From Perlabentimonas gracilis (GTDB taxonomy: Bacteria > Bacteroidota > Bacteroidia > Bacteroidales > Tenuifilaceae), in the NCBI RefSeq assembly GCF_011174675.1, contig NZ_JAANIG010000001.1, positions 124,001 through 188,000 on the forward strand: DNA of 64,000 nt. Reading direction: 5' to 3'. Below the pieces are notes generated by a model. The model saw only the letters and a list, made by a program, of their open reading frames with translations, did not search any database and had not been told where the DNA came from. Below are positions 4,747 to 47,323 of the stretch, piece by piece (the stretch's first letter is position 1; each line of letters opens with the position of its first letter). A program made the position numbers and the translations under genes.

Positions 4747-5319
4747 ATGGAATATATCATTATAATTATATCGGCTGTTTTTGTCAACAATATCGTGTTG
4801 GCTCAGTTCCTTGGGATATGTCCGTTCCTGGGGGTTTCGAGTAAAGTAGAAACAGCAATAGGTATGAGTGGTGCGGTTACTTTTGTTATGATTATTGCAG
4901 CCATTGTAACCTATCTGATTATGCACTACGTGCTTTTGCCTCTTGAGATAGGATATATGCAAACAGTGGCGTACATACTTGTTATTGCATCGCTTGTGCA
5001 GATGGTTGAGATTATACTAAAAAAGGTTAGCCCTGCGCTTTACCAAGCATTGGGGGTATTTCTGCCTCTAATCACAACCAACTGTGCCATTCTGGGGGTA
5101 GCCATTCTATTGGTGCAAAAGGAGTTCAACCTACTGGAGAGCGTGGTGTTTGCCATTGCCAACTCCGTTGGATTTGCCCTTGCACTTATTGTATTTGCCG
5201 GTATTCGTGAGTCGCTCGACCTTGTTGATTTGCCCAAGGGTATGAAGGGCGCTCCCATAGCACTTGTTGTTGCAGGTATTTTAGCTCTTGCATTCATGGG
5301 GTTTGCCGGAATAGTATAG
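4747..5319 (+). CDS. rnfA: RNF complex subunit A (integral membrane)
   Basis: This is the partner of RnfE in the membrane core. The 190 residues include about six membrane segments and the landmarks [18 protein letters not shown] (N-terminal) and [15 protein letters not shown] (middle), whose cysteines correspond to the Fe-S ligands of the RnfA/NqrE family. It is the last gene of the run and is followed within 30 bp by a hairpin with a T-tract. Na+ or H+ specificity cannot be read from the sequence. Confidence 0.95.
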
Positions 5320-5397: not shown

Positions 5398-6378
5398 CTA
5401 GAGTTCGCTTAGTATACCCCCAGTGTGCCAAAAAAGGATGTTCTTGCTCACATCTATTTTACCTTTTGCAATGTAGTCTAATACTCCTGCAGCAGCTTTG
5501 GCGGTGTAGGTGTTGTCCAGTAGTATGCCCTCGTGCTCAGAGAATAATTTTATGGCTTCAGCCGATTCCTTTGAAGCGATGCCATAACCAGGGCCAACAA
5601 AATTGGTGTCAACTGTTAGTTCCGATTTGTCAATCGCAAACGGATTCCCTAACCTTTGGAGCACTGGTTCTGCGCAGCTGCTAATGCTCTGGGCTAGCTG
5701 GTCGAAGCTATTGTCGGCGCTAACGCCGATAATTTTGATTTTATCCAGTCCATAAAGCCTTTTGCCAATCTCCAAACCTGCCTGCGTTCCGCCCGATGAG
5801 GTGGAGTGAATGATATAGTCGAACTCAATCCCCATCTCCGCCTGCTGCTGTTTCAATTCCCGAGCTGCATTAACAAACCCTAGACAACCCACGGCATTGG
5901 ATGCTCCAAGAGGGATGAGGTATGGCTTTTTGCCACTCCGTATCAAGTTGTTGTACACATCGTTCATCTTGCTGTCACGCTCCTCCCTCGATGAAACGTA
6001 GTGGATTGGCACGTTAAGCATTAAATTTACCTTGTGGTTACCCGTTGCCACTTTTGGTTTCTCTCCATTTTGAACAAGAATGCAATCTAGCCCAATCCTT
6101 TTACAAACCTGTGCTGTAATTCGTGCATGGTTCGATTGCACTGCTCCGCAGGTTATAATGGTGTCGGCTCCTTGAGCTATGGCCTCAGCAATTGAATACT
6201 CCAACTTCCGAAGCTTATTGCCCCATACCAGCTGGCCAATAAAATCGTCGCGCTTAATGAAAAGCCGAGGGCTTTTGGGGTAATCTTTGGTAATCCTCTT
6301 GCACTGCTCAATGGGGGTGTTTAGATTGGAAAGGGAAAGCTTGCTGATGGATTCAAACACCTGAATTGCCTTATTCAT
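5398..6378 (-). CDS. PLP-dependent D-cysteine desulfhydrase / ACC deaminase family enzyme
   Basis: This fold-type II PLP enzyme has 326 residues. GNKLRKLEY contains the likely PLP lysine (Lys55), and CGAVQSNHARITA at about residues 97-109 matches the family segment that holds the catalytic Ser-Asn. Relatives either break down D-cysteine to pyruvate, H2S and ammonia or deaminate 1-aminocyclopropane-1-carboxylate, and sequence alone separates the two poorly. D-cysteine desulfhydrase is the commoner activity in bacteria outside plant associates. It lies 37 bp after the hydrolase gene upstream and may share its transcript. Confidence 0.8.
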   Translation of the reverse strand: MNKAIQVFESISKLSLSNLNTPIEQCKRITKDYPKSPRLFIKRDDFIGQLVWGNKLRKLEYSIAEAIAQGADTIITCGAVQSNHARITAQVCKRIGLDCILVQNGEKPKVATGNHKVNLMLNVPIHYVSSREERDSKMNDVYNNLIRSGKKPYLIPLGASNAVGCLGFVNAARELKQQQAEMGIEFDYIIHSTSSGGTQAGLEIGKRLYGLDKIKIIGVSADNSFDQLAQSISSCAEPVLQRLGNPFAIDKSELTVDTNFVGPGYGIASKESAEAIKLFSEHEGILLDNTYTAKAAAGVLDYIAKGKIDVSKNILFWHTGGILSEL

Positions 6379-6415
6379 CTTTTTACAGATTTTATGTTTG
6401 AGAGTACGTGTGAGG

Positions 6416-7480
6416 CTACAATGCCTTTCGAATAATCTTGTTCATAGCGCTTCCGGCAGCCTGATGCCCTGCTCCATTAATTTGATTAGTAGTTCCTGTG
6501 AAGTAAAGGTCTGTTTTCGGGTTGTAAAAGGCAAAGGAACCCGTTTGTCCCCAAAAGCCCAGCACCTCGCCAATGGGCTTGAAAGGTGATGCAATGCGGG
6601 GAACGAAGAGTTTCTCCAGTCCAACCCCAAAGTAGAATATTCCAGGGCCAAAAAGTAGGTTCCACTGCTTTAGCTCATTAATCCTCTCTTTCGGGAAAAA
6701 GGTTCCATTGAAAAATGCTTTGATTACGGCCATCACTTCTTTTGATGTTGAAACAATACCACCCTCAACCGTAACAGAGGCCATATACCTGGGAATCCAC
6801 AGCTCCTTATTTCTGTAGTAGAATTTGGTTGGCGTATCGTCGGAAGTGTCGCTGTAGGCGTAGGTGTTTCTTAGACCCAATGGCTCAAATATATACTCCC
6901 TGAAAACCTCACCTATGGCTTTGCCAGTTACAATCTCTATTATCCTGCCTAAAATTTGGTAATTCGTGTCGGAATAATTTGCTTTTCCCTTTTTCCCAGG
7001 CATGAAGTTTGGCTTTAGGTTTTTTATTAGCCCAATGGTTTTGTCCAAATCCCATGCTTCGTCCTTTCCTGCCAGCAATTCATCGGCAGCAGTTTTTCCG
7101 CTTGGCTGCTTATGGAAGAAGTAATCGGGAATTCCCGATGTGTTGGATATAAGATGCCTTATGGTGATTTGGTTGGAGTAGTCAGTTCCTTTTAGAATAT
7201 GCAACCCCTTTACCATTTCAGCAGGTAGATATTTAGCTATTTTATCGTCCAAACTTAGCTTTTGCTCGTCGATTAGGCGTTGCACAACAATGGTTACGTA
7301 TAGTTTGGTAACGCTGGCAATAAAGTACGTATCGTCTTTGCCCATTTCGCCTGCCGCTCCGTGCCACGCAAAGGTCCCGCTGCCATCCTCAACGCAAAGG
7401 GCTGCGCTGAATACTTTTTTGCTTTTTACCATTTTCTCAACTGTTTGGTTGAGAAATGTTTCGTTGAGTTTTGTGTTCAT
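6416..7480 (-). CDS. Beta-lactamase-fold serine hydrolase (class C/AmpH-like)
   Basis: A 354-residue penicillin-binding-protein-like hydrolase. The nucleophile motif SVTK is at residues 56-59, and the tyrosine motif is YSD (in KANYSDTNYQILGRIIE) where relatives usually have YSN. No signal peptide is evident, in contrast to the two paralogues near 27-31 kb, so it may act in the cytoplasm. Such proteins are usually esterases, peptidases or peptidoglycan-editing enzymes; antibiotic resistance should not be assumed. It begins 20 bp after the ATPase gene ends, so the two may be cotranscribed. Confidence 0.75.
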   Translation of the reverse strand: MNTKLNETFLNQTVEKMVKSKKVFSAALCVEDGSGTFAWHGAAGEMGKDDTYFIASVTKLYVTIVVQRLIDEQKLSLDDKIAKYLPAEMVKGLHILKGTDYSNQITIRHLISNTSGIPDYFFHKQPSGKTAADELLAGKDEAWDLDKTIGLIKNLKPNFMPGKKGKANYSDTNYQILGRIIEIVTGKAIGEVFREYIFEPLGLRNTYAYSDTSDDTPTKFYYRNKELWIPRYMASVTVEGGIVSTSKEVMAVIKAFFNGTFFPKERINELKQWNLLFGPGIFYFGVGLEKLFVPRIASPFKPIGEVLGFWGQTGSFAFYNPKTDLYFTGTTNQINGAGHQAAGSAMNKIIRKAL

Positions 7481-7500
7481 GTTTAGAGTTGCTTAGTATT

Positions 7501-8640
7501 CTAATGATTTTTAACCTTAACCCAGTTTTGGAATAGGATATCGTAAACTTTATAGTAGGTCTCTCCATTTGGGGTTGTTTCCCTGTAAATCAGTTCATAG
7601 CCTAGGAGTGAATTAAGGGCTCGAATTACTGAGGCCGAAGCGGATAGGTTGTGAGAGCGAATAAATTCGCTTGCGGTTGGATGATAAACTATGCCCTCAG
7701 AGGCAATTGCCTTAAACAGCCTCCATTGTGCCGTAGTGAGCAGATTCCTGTAGTTAATGAAGAATGGCTCTTGCTCCATGAGCAATGCGTTGGCCTGTTG
7801 TTTCCAATGCTCCGTTTTTGCAACCTTATGGGTTGCTGCAAAGAGTTTGTTACAAAGCAATTGCACGTAGTAGGTGTGCGTGTCACACCAATTTAATACC
7901 TCCGCCGCTGTTTCTTTGGCAATGCTTTTTTTGTTGATTTCAAACTGTTTAACTATAAAATCGGCATAGGTATCTCTATCAATTTTCTGTAGCTTCAGAA
8001 GTTGGGTGCTTCTGTAGAATGGACGCTTGGGCGATGAGAATATTTCGCTCATTAAATGCTGCTGACTTCCGGAAAATATGAAAACCACATTGTTTAGCTG
8101 TTGCACGATTCCTCGCAGCCAAGCCTCTGAGTTTTTTTCGGGATAGCTGGCGATTTGCTGAAACTCGTCAATTGCTATCACTGTTGGGTAGGGCTGGCTG
8201 TTAATTAGTTGAAGAATGGAGGATATACTGTTTTCAGCCTCGCTAGGCTTAAGGTCGAAACTTACCTGGGGCTGTCCCGATAGTGAATCGAATGAAACCG
8301 TTGGACGAAATGATTTAATTACATTCCATATCTTTTGTCCAAATGAGGTGTTTTCATTGATTGACTGAATAAGTGAGGATGACAGTAAACCGAACAAATC
8401 GTTTAGCCTTTCTGTTGGGAGTATGTCAATGTATATACCTTTGTAGTTTTTGGGCAGCTTGCCTAGGGCATGATGGATTAAGCCTGTTTTTCCTAGCCTA
8501 CGGATGGAGATGATGGTGGATGAGTTCCCGTTTACGATATTACTCAAGAGCCACTCAGTTTCCTTTTCTCGGTCGCAAAAGTATAACTCGCCATGATAGC
8601 CAGCAGTAGAAAAGGGGTTTATTATTGGTTTAATTTCCAT
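7501..8640 (-). CDS. AAA-type ATPase (ATPase_2/archaeal-type) with C-terminal winged helix
   Basis: A 379-residue P-loop ATPase. The Walker A region is SIRRLGKTGL (residues 45-54), with Ser where related proteins have Gly-Pro. Walker B is TVIAIDEF (about 153-160), and a sensor-like strand VVFIFSGSQ follows at about 185-193. The C-terminal part (about 280-379) looks like a winged-helix domain, as in archaeal-type ATPases of the STAND superfamily. Functions in this family are mostly unknown, with links to DNA and mobile elements. Three phased palindromes lie over its promoter. I cannot assign a substrate. Confidence 0.7.
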   Translation of the reverse strand: MEIKPIINPFSTAGYHGELYFCDREKETEWLLSNIVNGNSSTIISIRRLGKTGLIHHALGKLPKNYKGIYIDILPTERLNDLFGLLSSSLIQSINENTSFGQKIWNVIKSFRPTVSFDSLSGQPQVSFDLKPSEAENSISSILQLINSQPYPTVIAIDEFQQIASYPEKNSEAWLRGIVQQLNNVVFIFSGSQQHLMSEIFSSPKRPFYRSTQLLKLQKIDRDTYADFIVKQFEINKKSIAKETAAEVLNWCDTHTYYVQLLCNKLFAATHKVAKTEHWKQQANALLMEQEPFFINYRNLLTTAQWRLFKAIASEGIVYHPTASEFIRSHNLSASASVIRALNSLLGYELIYRETTPNGETYYKVYDILFQNWVKVKNH

Positions 8641-8660
8641 TGCACAATTTTATAATAATG

Positions 8661-8668
8661 CAAATATA
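8661..8668 (-). promoter_or_regulatory. Predicted -7 element of the ATPase gene
   Basis: On the minus strand this reads TATATTTG, a full match to the Bacteroidota -7 consensus TAnnTTTG. It is 20 bp before the ATPase ATG. No TTG is present at the ideal 19-nt distance; that position falls inside the second palindrome. Confidence 0.55.
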
Positions 8669-8670
8669 GC

Positions 8671-8711
8671 TAACATAATGTTACAAACATAATGTTAGTA
8701 ACATAATGTTA
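8671..8711. repeat. Three phased 11-bp palindromes (operator-like array)
   Basis: AACATAATGTT occurs three times without a mismatch, at 8672-8682, 8686-8696 and 8700-8710, exactly 14 bp apart. The first and third copies extend to the 13-mer TAACATAATGTTA. Each unit is a dyad (AACAT-A-ATGTT). The array begins 2 bp upstream of the predicted -7 element of the ATPase gene, so bound protein would block or shape that promoter. The bound factor is unknown and could be the ATPase's own winged-helix domain. Confidence 0.7.
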
Positions 8712-8785
8712 GTTGAAGTGAATGCTTTACTATTAAGTATTCACCTTGCCCAACGGATTGCTAATGGTTAAGCCTTAAAGCAAAC

Positions 8786-9955
8786 TTAGAACTTTTTAAT
8801 GATTTCGGAAAATGCGCCTAGAAAGGAATCAACAATGCTCTTTTCAATAGTCAATGCAGGGTCCAACCTCAACACCTCAGTATTTGGACGCTTACAAAGA
8901 ATGAAACCCCTAATGAATAGCTCCTCGTACATCTCCTGGGCATTGCTCTTAAACTCTATGGCAAGAATTAGTCCACGCCCCCTAATGCTTTTAATTAGTG
9001 GGTAATCATTCTTTATCTTTAGCAGTTCATTAAGCAGAAAATTACCTAATTCTTGCGATTTTTGTAGTAGATTATCATCCTCTATAATGCTTATTACTTC
9101 CTTGATAACAAATGCCCCAAGGGGGTCGTTCTGGTGCGATTGGGCGTATACGAATTTTACGTTTTCCAACCTTTGGGCAATTCCGCCTGAAATTGCCGTA
9201 ACGCTTACTGGGTAGCCATTGCCAATGCCCTTGCCCATGGCTACAATATCGGGCTGAATGGGGTAGTGATGAAAGCCAAACCATTTACCTGTGCGACCAA
9301 TACCAGTGGTAACCTCGTTGGACATTACGGTTCCTCCATTGGCGTGAACCTTTTCAGCTATCTTCTCAATTAGCGATTTTGAGGGGAACCGGACTAGTCC
9401 CGATGAGCTGCCGGGCTCTAGCATAAAGACACCTATTCTATCGAAAGGGATTTTCTCAAAATCGTCGCATTGGCCCGTACAACCATCTTCACCGTTATTG
9501 CATCCGCAGTTGAGCCTGTCGTAAAGGAACCAGCTGTCGGCTGATTTATGCGCTGCATCGCCGTAGGCTCCAAAGTACGATTCCTTGAAGGTGAGAGCCA
9601 GTGGCTTGTCGGATACGGCTCTGGCTATTCGCATGCCCAGTTCTACTGCTTCGCTGCCCGAGCAAAGGAATTCGCACTTGCCACCTTTCAATCCAACAAT
9701 TTCAAGAATTTTCCCTGAGACCTCGCTTATAATTGGATGACAATACACAAAACCCGTATGGGTTATTCTACCAATCTGACTGGCAATTGCTTGGTTCACA
9801 CGCTTGTTGTTGTGCCCAACGGAAGTACACCATACACCAGATTCTAGATCGATGTAACGATTTCCGTTATTGTCAATAATGTAGCAGTTGTTAGAGTCGA
9901 CAATGTTGTCGAGTTTAAGCTGGTGGCCTGTTGTCCAGATAATGTTTTTCATCAT
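8786..9955 (-). CDS. Class III PLP aminotransferase, variant with Cys cluster
   Basis: A fold-type I, class III aminotransferase. The start is set at the ATG pair at 9950-9955, giving about 389 residues; a TTG further upstream is less likely. Gly-Ser-Glu-Ala for phosphate binding is at about 100-103, and the PLP lysine is probably Lys242 in MGKGIGNGYP. Two features are odd. The Asp that normally contacts the PLP ring nitrogen is Asn213 (NEVTTGIGRTG instead of DEVQTGxGRTG). A cysteine-rich loop (Cys150, Cys152, Cys159, Cys163) could bind metal. The substrate is unknown. It follows the GNAT gene after 92 bp. Confidence 0.75.
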   Translation of the reverse strand: MMKNIIWTTGHQLKLDNIVDSNNCYIIDNNGNRYIDLESGVWCTSVGHNNKRVNQAIASQIGRITHTGFVYCHPIISEVSGKILEIVGLKGGKCEFLCSGSEAVELGMRIARAVSDKPLALTFKESYFGAYGDAAHKSADSWFLYDRLNCGCNNGEDGCTGQCDDFEKIPFDRIGVFMLEPGSSSGLVRFPSKSLIEKIAEKVHANGGTVMSNEVTTGIGRTGKWFGFHHYPIQPDIVAMGKGIGNGYPVSVTAISGGIAQRLENVKFVYAQSHQNDPLGAFVIKEVISIIEDDNLLQKSQELGNFLLNELLKIKNDYPLIKSIRGRGLILAIEFKSNAQEMYEELFIRGFILCKRPNTEVLRLDPALTIEKSIVDSFLGAFSEIIKKF

Positions 9956-10047
9956 AATAAAATTAATTTTCAATTGTATGATGGATCATCCATGTATGTT
10001 ATTTTATCAATAGAGTGTTTGTGTTTTGCAAACAAGGATGTATCATA

Positions 10048-10560
10048 TTAATCTAAAATTCTAAGCAAAACCTTGTTTTCATATTTATTCCCATCCATAA
10101 CAAAATTGGTGGAGCCAATAGTTTTGAATTGATTTTTCTGGTAGAATTCCAATGCGCTAAAGTTTTTATGGTAAACGGTAAGCCATGCTGCTTTGTAATT
10201 TAGACTTTGCATATGCTCAAAAGATTTCTCAAGAAGCATTCTTCCAATGCCTTTCCCCTTAAACCTTTCCAGCACATAAAGAACCGCTATTTCGGGGCAA
10301 TCAATCTCAATTTCAACAGGGCATTTCTCGTTCAAAGCAATTTCTATACACCCTAAGAGATGGCTTTCCGTTTCGGCAATTAGCATCACTCGGCTTTTAT
10401 CCTCTAATGTTTTTTTAATGTTTTCATAGGTGAATTCACTCATCACGTATTTTGAGAATTCAGTTCTAATCCCCTCCTCGGCATAGGTGGCAATCCATAC
10501 TTGCTGTTTAAGCACAGCTATGTTGTAAATATCTTTTGTGTTTGCCCTTCGAATCTGCAT
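10048..10560 (-). CDS. GNAT family N-acetyltransferase
   Basis: A 170-residue acetyltransferase of the GNAT fold. The acetyl-CoA pyrophosphate loop is RFKGKGIGRMLLE (about residues 94-106), preceded by the beta-4 strand IAVLYVLE. The later AWLTVYHKNFSALEFYQKNQF segment is the usual beta-5/alpha-4 region. The length and order match small-molecule or protein N-acetyltransferases, with no hint of the acceptor. It lies 2 bp after the acyltransferase gene upstream, so the two are almost certainly cotranscribed. Confidence 0.82.
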   Translation of the reverse strand: MQIRRANTKDIYNIAVLKQQVWIATYAEEGIRTEFSKYVMSEFTYENIKKTLEDKSRVMLIAETESHLLGCIEIALNEKCPVEIEIDCPEIAVLYVLERFKGKGIGRMLLEKSFEHMQSLNYKAAWLTVYHKNFSALEFYQKNQFKTIGSTNFVMDGNKYENKVLLRILD

Positions 10561-10562
10561 CG

Positions 10563-11351
10563 CTAGAGTTCCTCTGCTCGTTCAATTTTTCCTGATAAAT
10601 CCTTAATAAATCTTACCATTGGGGCACCGTCAATCACATCATGATCGAGAAGAATAGTGGCATTCAAAACCTCTCGGATTTTTATTTCGTCGCCCACAAC
10701 CATGGGTTTTTTTAGAACCGACCCTATACCAAAAGATATTGGATGCACTGCCCTATGGATAAACCAACCCTTTACCTGTCCCATCATTCCCACCGAGGTT
10801 ACCGAAACGTTTCCCATTTTGCCATAGGCAAATCTAGGATTGCGTAGAATTACCTTCCAAACCAGCCGTCGTAGAACCCCAGGTAGATGGTAGTAAAACC
10901 TTTCGGTAAGGGATGGCCTTTTGTTTAGCACAATATCTGATGATGACGAGGATAGAGCTTTTGATTTCTCAATTTCGCTGGTTATCTCAGTAACACTTTT
11001 GGAGTTACATCTCTCAATAACAATGGGTAGGGGAACTCTTTTCCCGTCAATCAATTTCTCCACTAAGAAAGAGATGTTTATTTCGTTGAAAACAACCAGT
11101 TCCCTTTTACCCTTGAGGAACGCAGCAGCTTCGGGATGCTGCTCCAGCGTGGTGGCGATAACCTTTAAAACCCACGCATTGAAAGATACTTTAACCCCAG
11201 TCTTCCTAAGCTCTCTAATCTTCTTTCGGGCATTGGTAACATCGAACTCTAGTATTGCAGCCACATGATGCTTGGCAAGCCCTATCGAAAAAACATCGAA
11301 GGTGGCTACTCGTGAGGTTGGAATTTTTTGGGTACTGGCAACAGATTTCAT
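10563..11351 (-). CDS. Stand-alone 2-oxoacid dehydrogenase E2-type acyltransferase domain
   Basis: The 262 residues correspond to only the catalytic domain of E2 components of 2-oxoacid dehydrogenases (CAT-like fold). The active-site motif DHDVIDGAP places His237 and Asp241 where E2 enzymes have the catalytic His and Asp (DHRxxDG). No lipoyl domain or peripheral subunit-binding domain is present, and no E1 or E3 gene is near. A basic/aromatic segment at about residues 148-180 (PSLTERFYYHLPGVLRR and following) replaces the usual core linker. It may be a free acyltransferase acting on a CoA thioester. Gaps are 2 bp to the GNAT gene and 7 bp from the S41 gene. Confidence 0.78.
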   Translation of the reverse strand: MKSVASTQKIPTSRVATFDVFSIGLAKHHVAAILEFDVTNARKKIRELRKTGVKVSFNAWVLKVIATTLEQHPEAAAFLKGKRELVVFNEINISFLVEKLIDGKRVPLPIVIERCNSKSVTEITSEIEKSKALSSSSSDIVLNKRPSLTERFYYHLPGVLRRLVWKVILRNPRFAYGKMGNVSVTSVGMMGQVKGWFIHRAVHPISFGIGSVLKKPMVVGDEIKIREVLNATILLDHDVIDGAPMVRFIKDLSGKIERAEEL

Positions 11352-11358
11352 AATAATA

Positions 11359-12366
11359 CTACTTATCCGACTTCAGAATGCTCAAAGCTGCTTCCAAAAT
11401 GGTATCAATGCCATTTGCCTCATCAACGGGACTTAGCTCAACAATGATATCAGCTGGTACGCCATTCTCTATATGTTCACCCTGTGGGTTTATGGTTTGG
11501 GTTGCTGAGAATCTGAAGATCCAACCATTGGGGAGTTCTCCATACGCTGGTATTCCACCACCACCGCCTGTATTGTCGCCCACTAGCATGGCGTTAGGTA
11601 GTGACTTCATCATTTGTGCGAAAAGGTTCGATGCACTGTATGAGTTCCTGTTGCACAGCAAAACCACCTGCCCTGTAAAACGCTTGCCGGAGCGCGGTGA
11701 GATACTCAACTTTCTCCATGGGGAGAAATTGTCCTTTCCGGAGCCATTTTTAACTCGGCTATAACCATAATCGAAATCTTGATCTGTTAAGGCCGATGCC
11801 AAAGCCACTGCGTTGTTTGATGAGCCTCCCCCGTTACTTCTTATATCAATAATTATCCCGTTCAGTCCTTGGGCACGATCTATCAACTCATCGATGTTCG
11901 CTTCTGAAATGGAGCTGCCAAACGAAGAGTAGTAAACGTAGAGAGCCTCGTCGATAATTTGGTTGTGAAGGGGGCCTGTAATCTTATAGTCTGAGCCTAA
12001 ATAGTTTCTGTAGATGATGTTCTCGTTGAAGTTTGCCGGATAGTCGAGAAACCAGTTCCAGTTCCTACTGCGGTCGAAAGGGCTAGTAATATTTACATGC
12101 CCATCGTTTAGCTCGTATAGCATACTGGCCATCACATCAAATAGTTCCTTATCACTCATACCTTCGTAAACCATAGGGCGATAGGTACTATAGATCTCGT
12201 TCCAGTCAATCGATTTGTACTCAAAATACGAGTACTTATTGTTTAGCTCGTGCCAAAGATGCTCAAAGTTACTTAGGGGGTTGCTTTCAGGGTCATCAGC
12301 CAGGAAGTGTTTGGCGCAACCAGATATAACAATAGCCATTAGGGCTAAAATAAATATTCTTTTCAT
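11359..12366 (-). CDS. S41 family peptidase lipoprotein (tricorn-type)
   Basis: An exported protease with a lipoprotein signal (MKRIFILALMAIVISGC, lipidated Cys17). After a tricorn-C1-like helical region (about 30-95) comes the S41 catalytic domain. GIIIDIRSNGGGSSNN is at about 170-185, and the probable nucleophile is Ser244 in NSYSAS. The start at 12366 is supported by an ATGA overlap with the stop of the upstream gene, and a start 27 bp earlier would spoil the signal peptide. C-terminal processing peptidases of this clan cut unfolded or tail-marked proteins, but the target here is unknown. Confidence 0.85.
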   Translation of the reverse strand: MKRIFILALMAIVISGCAKHFLADDPESNPLSNFEHLWHELNNKYSYFEYKSIDWNEIYSTYRPMVYEGMSDKELFDVMASMLYELNDGHVNITSPFDRSRNWNWFLDYPANFNENIIYRNYLGSDYKITGPLHNQIIDEALYVYYSSFGSSISEANIDELIDRAQGLNGIIIDIRSNGGGSSNNAVALASALTDQDFDYGYSRVKNGSGKDNFSPWRKLSISPRSGKRFTGQVVLLCNRNSYSASNLFAQMMKSLPNAMLVGDNTGGGGGIPAYGELPNGWIFRFSATQTINPQGEHIENGVPADIIVELSPVDEANGIDTILEAALSILKSDK

Positions 12367-46969: not shown

Positions 46970-47323
46970 CTTTATGTAGTTAATCCTGTTTACTAATCTG
47001 TTTAAAGTTAAACCCTGTTGATGCATAGACTAATTGATTTGCTGTGCCCCATTATTGTACGATTTATCAAATGGCATTATCAATATACAAAACACTTTTG
47101 GCTATATATGCTAGTTTTGGATTGGGGCGAATAATGCTTCAAATGTAACCACTTTATCGCCATTGGCAAGCAGCGCTTATTGTTTTTTTACTACAGGGAG
47201 TAAAGTCTTTGAAGAGTGATTGTAAAATACTGGATAGGGCCGCTGCTCATTTAATTCGAAAATGCTAGTTTAAAAAATTGCATGAGACTCTCAAATCTTA
47301 ATGGTTTGGAGAAGAATGTAGAT
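46970..47323. other. Gap without recognised gene
   Basis: About 350 bp between the NfeD start and the macrodomain gene stop. I see no gene, RNA or clear hairpin here. Confidence 0.5.

Follow-up and report, generated by a model that had tools for sequence, protein, structure and literature searches.

The three identical palindromes lying in front of an AAA-type ATPase gene of Perlabentimonas gracilis are very probably docking sites of that same ATPase, and the array as a whole is likely its own operator, at which the protein binds its own promoter and represses itself. As judged by sequence comparison, binding of the ATPase to its promoter array is well supported. We infer physical binding, repression rather than activation, cooperativity and control by ATP, binding and repression being read from the covariation between protein and array and from the overlap of the array with the promoter.

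The array and the promoter of the ATPase gene

The window, i.e. the whole stretch of 64,000 bp that was analysed, carries the following features around the array:

5398..6378, minus strand: PLP-dependent enzyme gene, 37 bp further downstream
6416..7480, minus strand: beta-lactamase-fold protein gene, 20 bp downstream of the ATPase gene
7501..8640, minus strand: ATPase gene, 379 aa, PF01637/AAA_14 with a C-terminal winged helix (Pfam, predicted fold)
7510..7734, minus strand: winged helix-turn-helix, residues 303-377 (AlphaFold2 prediction)
7600..7638, minus strand: recognition helix, residues 335-347 (AlphaFold2), of which 336, 337, 339 and 340 predict array letters
8485..8508, minus strand: Walker A motif SIRRLGKT, residues 45-52 (family alignment)
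8661..8668, minus strand: -7 promoter element TATATTTG (read from the sequence)
8672..8682, minus strand: array copy nearest the ATPase gene, AACATAATGTT on the plus strand and AACATTATGTT on the gene strand (sequence, TRF)
8686..8696, minus strand: middle array copy (sequence, TRF)
8688..8691, minus strand: TATG in the middle copy, 19 bp from the -7 box, at the -33 place (TTTG) with three of four letters
8700..8710, minus strand: array copy farthest from the ATPase gene (sequence, TRF)
8786-9949, minus strand: aminotransferase gene

The array lies between the 3' end of the aminotransferase gene and the start of the minus-strand ATPase gene. As the initial annotation had described, AACATAATGTT is present in three exact copies (8672-8682, 8686-8696 and 8700-8710) at a strict 14-bp period with zero mismatches, each dyad being composed of 5-bp arms, AACAT/ATGTT, flanking one central base. 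TRF reported the array at 8671-8713 (period 14, 3.1 copies, score 72), which is the better of the two rows with a score of at least 40 in the 64 kb; the other row, at 46981-47004 (period 12, 1.9 copies), is weak. Throughout the 4.37-Mb genome, AACATAATGTT was found in six places, three of them in the array (backward control: 5), while a two-dyad pattern allowing up to three mismatches was found at the array locus only (backward control: 0). The proposed genome-wide scan for pairs at 14-bp spacing thus left a single array. Rfam gave no match between positions 5000 and 14000 of the window, and a sigma-70 scan found 4 sites vs. 3.7 in shuffles.

Concerning the promoter, PMC7366714 gives the Bacteroides fragilis consensus as TAnnTTTG at -7 and TTTG near -33, the -33 part being one that was not found in Flavobacterium johnsoniae. 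The perfect -7 element that had been noticed next to the first copy was recovered, TATATTTG being located 3 bp past the nearest array copy and 20 bp ahead of the ATPase start codon (8640-8638). It starts 9 nt from the axis of that copy, which is the commonest phase in the family: an exact TAnnTTTG occurs within the last 110 nt in 53 of 102 arrays (8% in mononucleotide shuffles), and, relative to the last dyad axis, 22 of these 53 boxes start at phase 9 of 14 and another 7 at phase 10. The window itself is absent from these 22 because the automatic choice fell on TATGTTTG, inside the array (distance -14), instead of on the real box TATATTTG at 9; this wrong pick is included among the 14 of 53 arrays whose chosen box is upstream of the last dyad. 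The preferred phase speaks for a self-operator; the arrays lacking an exact TAnnTTTG and those with an upstream box speak against it. As for the -33 position, 28 of the 53 arrays have a TTG there, separated from the box by 19-20 bp, a count that has no shuffle control. With 9 nt between box and last axis, TTG lies at 19 bp in the last-but-one dyad (9/9 arrays), and with 23 nt it lies at 19 bp inside the last dyad (6/7), so that the CATTTTG core supplies the -33 element in these arrays.

These positions suggest how the ATPase may act. Its C-terminal winged helix would read the half-sites via recognition-helix residues 336-340, with subunits sitting side by side on the 14-bp-spaced dyads. Since a bound protein would cover the -33 element and the spacer, dyads overlying the -33 to -7 region would lead to autorepression, the bound ATPase shutting off its own gene until its ATP state, or another trigger, alters the assembly and frees the promoter. 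That the ATPase binds the array but activates or switches its own promoter is unlikely. Activation would suit the preferred phase between array and -7 box, as is often seen for activators, and the archaeal protein Orc1-2 binds an own-promoter motif and activates repair genes, according to PMC9738581. Against activation, the dyads cover the DNA between the -33 and -7 elements and in many arrays contain the -33 TTG, and in the minority of arrays with a chosen box upstream, binding should block.

The ATPase family and the conservation of the array

The ATPase scores 38.1 bits with PF01637 (ATPase_2), above the curated cut-off of 33.2, and 31.4 bits with PF13173 (AAA_14), above the cut-off of 27, over the partial stretch 128-202. 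The match to the PADLOC defence candidate PDC-S27 covers profile positions 30-182 of 484, with 18.6 bits and an E of 1.8e-4. The Walker A motif SIRRLGKT had been singled out as unusual, a view that the family alignment does not bear out: a Walker A of the type [SA]xR[RK]xGK[TS] and a Walker B DEFQ are family-wide, which makes SIRRLGKT typical, and R47, G50 and K51 are invariant throughout an alignment of 71 sequences, made up of that of the window and those of 70 relatives. An AlphaFold2 model built from 71 sequences (pLDDT 95.6, pTM 0.90) predicts a winged helix with helices at 303-315, 324-329 and 335-347 and strands at 351-355 and 361-365. The closest solved folds are 2qen (Z 25.4 over 330 residues) and 2fna (Z 23.0 over 332), followed by Orc/Cdc6 proteins, plant NLRs and TnsC/MuB; the AAA+ plus winged-helix arrangement of Orc1/Cdc6 is matched in fold only (1w5t, Z 19.2 over 329 residues, rmsd 5.2).

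As a whole, the family is patchily distributed. The P. gracilis genome has one such gene, with a single PF01637 match above cut-off. With the own genome counted each time, ATPase matches were present in 71 of 197 relatives (E 1e-3), 107 of 393 genomes of the order (E 1e-100) and 40 of 395 genomes across the phylum (E 1e-60), while none of four same-genus genomes had a match (E 1e-3). A genome of the order may hold up to 5 members, on different contigs, and up to 6 were counted in the search of the 197 relatives. In genus g208 (L186-L190, L192-L195), the match lies within an open frame of 1319-1876 aa in 8 of 9 loci and is thus part of much larger proteins. Bacteroides sp. CACC 737 carries one copy on each of six plasmids (H2-H4, H6, H9, H10): that of H6 is whole and annotated, whereas the other five match as two or three separate fragments, lack a gene annotation and are therefore probably broken.

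Three ACATNATGT dyads at 14 bp were found in the own genome only (1/197), the pattern search finding none in the 196 relatives. The upstream regions of relatives carry tandem dyads with other letters, such as AACATTTTGTT, TTACATTTTGTAA, ATACATTTTGTAT, ACGCATTTTGCGT, ACACATTTTGTGT, ACCTAAAATAGGT and ACGAACTTTTCGT, and an excess of lags at 14, 15 and their doubles was seen in 64 upstreams (66 before rows were dropped). In a larger set of 130 non-redundant relatives (153 before duplicate, short and masked-N upstreams were dropped, with one weak 39-bit match in L108 included), 111 have within 150 bp upstream a tandem repeat with a period of 14 or 15 bp and at least 9 of 11 bases matching. In 100 shuffles, the mean was 9.2 and the maximum 17 of 130, and of 644 control windows taken at these loci, 38 had such a repeat; the z-score at lag 14 was 30.5. 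The remaining 19 upstreams lack such a repeat at this threshold, which counts against the self-operator. In a second, NFTDRE-type subfamily (77 upstreams cut to 66), a 15-bp repeat of at least 10 of 11 bases was found in 44 of 66, with z-scores of 29.4 at lag 15 and -1.6 at lag 14. With 14 bp in one subfamily and 15 bp in the other, it follows that spacing is kept within a subfamily while the letters change.

Plasmid and phage members were inspected as well. No array was seen for the copy from Parabacteroides (L290) or for that on a phage contig (L296), and two Bacteroides plasmid copies have weak repeats only, which also counts against the self-operator. Outside the Bacteroidota, no clear 14- or 15-bp array was found with the plasmid homologues of Marinomonas (L293) and Arcobacter (L294), and that of Geobacter (L295) has a weak 14-bp repeat.

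The search of other genomes for the array upstream of orthologues, which the initial annotation had advised, therefore recovered the repeats as an architecture with diverged letters. As orthologous loci possess repeats and the array is unique in its genome, the idea that the ATPase is its own binder survives the two findings named as fatal to it, repeats missing at orthologues or scattered at random.

Recognition helix and half-site letters

Half-site positions (op) were counted outward from the dyad axis, in a heuristic register that looks wrong for some arrays. Covariation was calculated as APC-corrected mutual information on 101 of the 130 sequences (period 14, score at least 16; effective number 69). 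The top protein column was R340 for op+3 (z 6.2), I339 (z 5.3) followed by A336 (z 4.7) for op+4, and A336 for op+5 (z 6.3); the AlphaFold2 model places 336, 339 and 340 near one another in the predicted recognition helix (335-347). Counting against this pattern, the top columns of op+2 and op+6, F309 and W279, lie outside the helix, and the C-terminal columns taken together stood above the rest at a marginal p of 0.058. The individual pairings are clear: L339 occurs with T at +4 in 21/21 cases, R340 with G at +3 in 66/75, and G at +5 accompanies S336 in 41/58 vs. 0/39 for A336. Within clades defined at 50% identity, the 339/+4 and 336/+5 links stayed at 0/2000 permutations, while those of 340/+3 (27/2000), 337/+5 (41/2000) and 336/+4 (9/2000) weakened.

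The 15-bp subfamily (52 of 66 sequences) is, as far as covariation can tell, an independent repeat of the residue-340 link. Residue 340 was top for op+4 (z 3.7) and op+5 (z 4.1), which are modest values, with I340 paired to 'TA' (10/10), K340 to 'CC' (11/13) and R340 to 'CA' (15/24). Within-clade permutations reached the observed value in 0/2000 cases at 50 and 55% clustering and in 3/2000 at 60%. At other positions, R206 tops +1 and A173 tops +3, which, like the modest z-scores, counts against the self-operator.

A prediction matrix was then restricted to residues 336, 337, 339 and 340, trained on proteins of at most 45% identity, and used to rank each protein's own upstream against 40 random upstreams. 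Since the columns were picked on the training set (336, 339 and 340 by mutual information, 337 by eye), the clean figure is that of the held-out proteins, 37 of which were left from 118 members after the removal of 66 with at least 60% identity to the training set, 7 with at least that to each other and 8 fused ones. For these 37, the own upstream had a mean percentile of 0.747 (p 1e-6), vs. 0.40-0.61 for twelve control sets of four other columns; for all 138 proteins, the value was 0.768 vs. 0.46-0.57 for control columns. The array letters are thus partly predictable from four ATPase residues.

The proposal that the ATPase docks on the array through its winged helix is in this way supported along three lines, the conservation of the array with the gene, the covariation of the recognition helix and the held-out prediction, all of them pointing to a probable self-binder. 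It is hardly credible that a different regulator binds the array, as its letters follow the recognition helix of the ATPase and the genome has no second array of this kind.

Genomic context and known systems

The ATPase, beta-lactamase-fold and PLP-enzyme genes, which lie on one strand (5398-8640), perhaps share a transcript. Among 75 loci, no conserved neighbours were found besides CRISPR genes and small clusters of 3-4 loci, and the window's flanking genes are rare in family genomes (2 of 27, own included, in one search, and own only in another).

The initial annotation had left the choice between a repressor and an origin-type protein, and a repressor is the more likely. That the dyads are iterons of an origin- or partition-type site, with the ATPase as an Orc1/Cdc6-like initiator, which would be compatible with autoregulation, is very improbable. 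The fold is close to Cdc6/Orc1 (1w5t, as above), and archaeal origins adjoin their own cdc6 gene and depend on it, according to PMC3936714. The GC skew is below zero at 8001-12000 (-0.041), a weak sign either way, and this dip is short, the skew being positive again from 10001 on. The presence of the ATPase in only 107 of 393 genomes of the order, its several members per genome on different contigs, its lack of conserved neighbours other than CRISPR genes and the phase that the array holds with the promoter all speak against an origin.

There is equally little likelihood that array and ATPase form a small mobile element with the array as its end or target, which would also be compatible with autoregulation. 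The patchy spread, with its absence from the four same-genus genomes, the copies on Bacteroides plasmids and the position between cas9 and cas1 in several loci would fit such an element, as would a unit-like site in the 300 bp downstream in 7 of 60 loci, vs. 1 of 60 inside the gene. Yet 53 of the 60 loci have no downstream site of this kind, no mobility gene recurs beside the ATPase (a transposase-like gene, called by eye, in 3 of 75 loci), and paralogues of one genome share no half-site (0 of 24 within-genome pairs vs. 16 of 796 between genomes, a difference that is not significant).

Autoregulation by an AAA+ winged-helix protein, as proposed here for the ATPase, has a precedent. According to PMC9738581, archaeal Orc1-2 is a non-initiator regulator of similar build, an AAA+ ATPase whose C-terminal end is a winged helix; it binds a motif in its own promoter, strongly so in the ATP-bound form. 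The two share the Orc/Cdc6-group fold, although identity to archaeal Orc structures among the fold matches is 10-12%. Orc1-2 governs a DNA-damage regulon through a short ANTTTC motif in several promoters (PMC9738581), unlike the ATPase, with its one site per genome and tandem dyads of fixed period. Archaeal Cdc6, or origin recognition, boxes are likewise repeats beside the gene of their reader, each gene-site pair being specific, but they are replication origins, and the likeness to the ATPase array is one of gene and site arrangement alone (PMC3936714). The best fold matches, the archaeal ATPases PABY2304 (2qen) and SSO1545 (2fna), have 16-17% identity, and no paper on their DNA sites was found in a search of open-licence PMC papers. 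DnaA differs from the ATPase in its DNA-binding domain and in having many further sites. It is likewise an AAA+ protein that acts on its own promoter via repeated boxes, as stated in PMC3936714.

AAA+ winged-helix autoregulators being already known, what is added here, with strong support from sequence, is a set of putative operator arrays with a partly readable code across the Bacteroidota. No paper on such arrays was found in the open-licence PMC literature; most subscription papers fell outside this scope, and novelty is unproven. A large unnamed ATPase family thereby gains a testable activity, with a binding place, a residue-to-base reading and a controlled promoter. If true, the ATPase-array pairs would be ready-made protein-operator modules whose code is partly readable, and the 14- vs. 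15-bp period of the subfamilies would be a way into the packing of Orc/STAND-type ATPases along DNA.

More tentatively, and with considerable doubt, these solitary, Orc/STAND-like and phylum-wide ATPases may be one-gene switches, in which an ATP-dependent, DNA-templated oligomer forms on a private array and is released when triggered, for instance by an invader, and type II CRISPR operons would have captured such genes repeatedly; under this speculative proposal, the geometry of the subfamily would set the period and the recognition helix the letters.

Type II CRISPR cas genes adjoin the ATPase in 7 of 74 loci (window excluded). The gene is located between cas9 and cas1 in L112, L118, L121 and L123, before cas1 in L143, where a short upstream ORF clusters with Cas9s. 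In L131 the ATPase gene is divergent from cas1, and in L085 it precedes cas9. The array promoter might drive cas1-cas2 in CRISPR-associated loci. Also encoded at the cas9-cas1 spot are a small protein of transposase-like appearance and a 23S rRNA intervening-sequence protein (L112:5078-5707, L112:8093-8452 and L118:7149-7799), the transposase-like call being made by eye and the protein of L112 having no Pfam match; the spot is thus common to other solitary genes.
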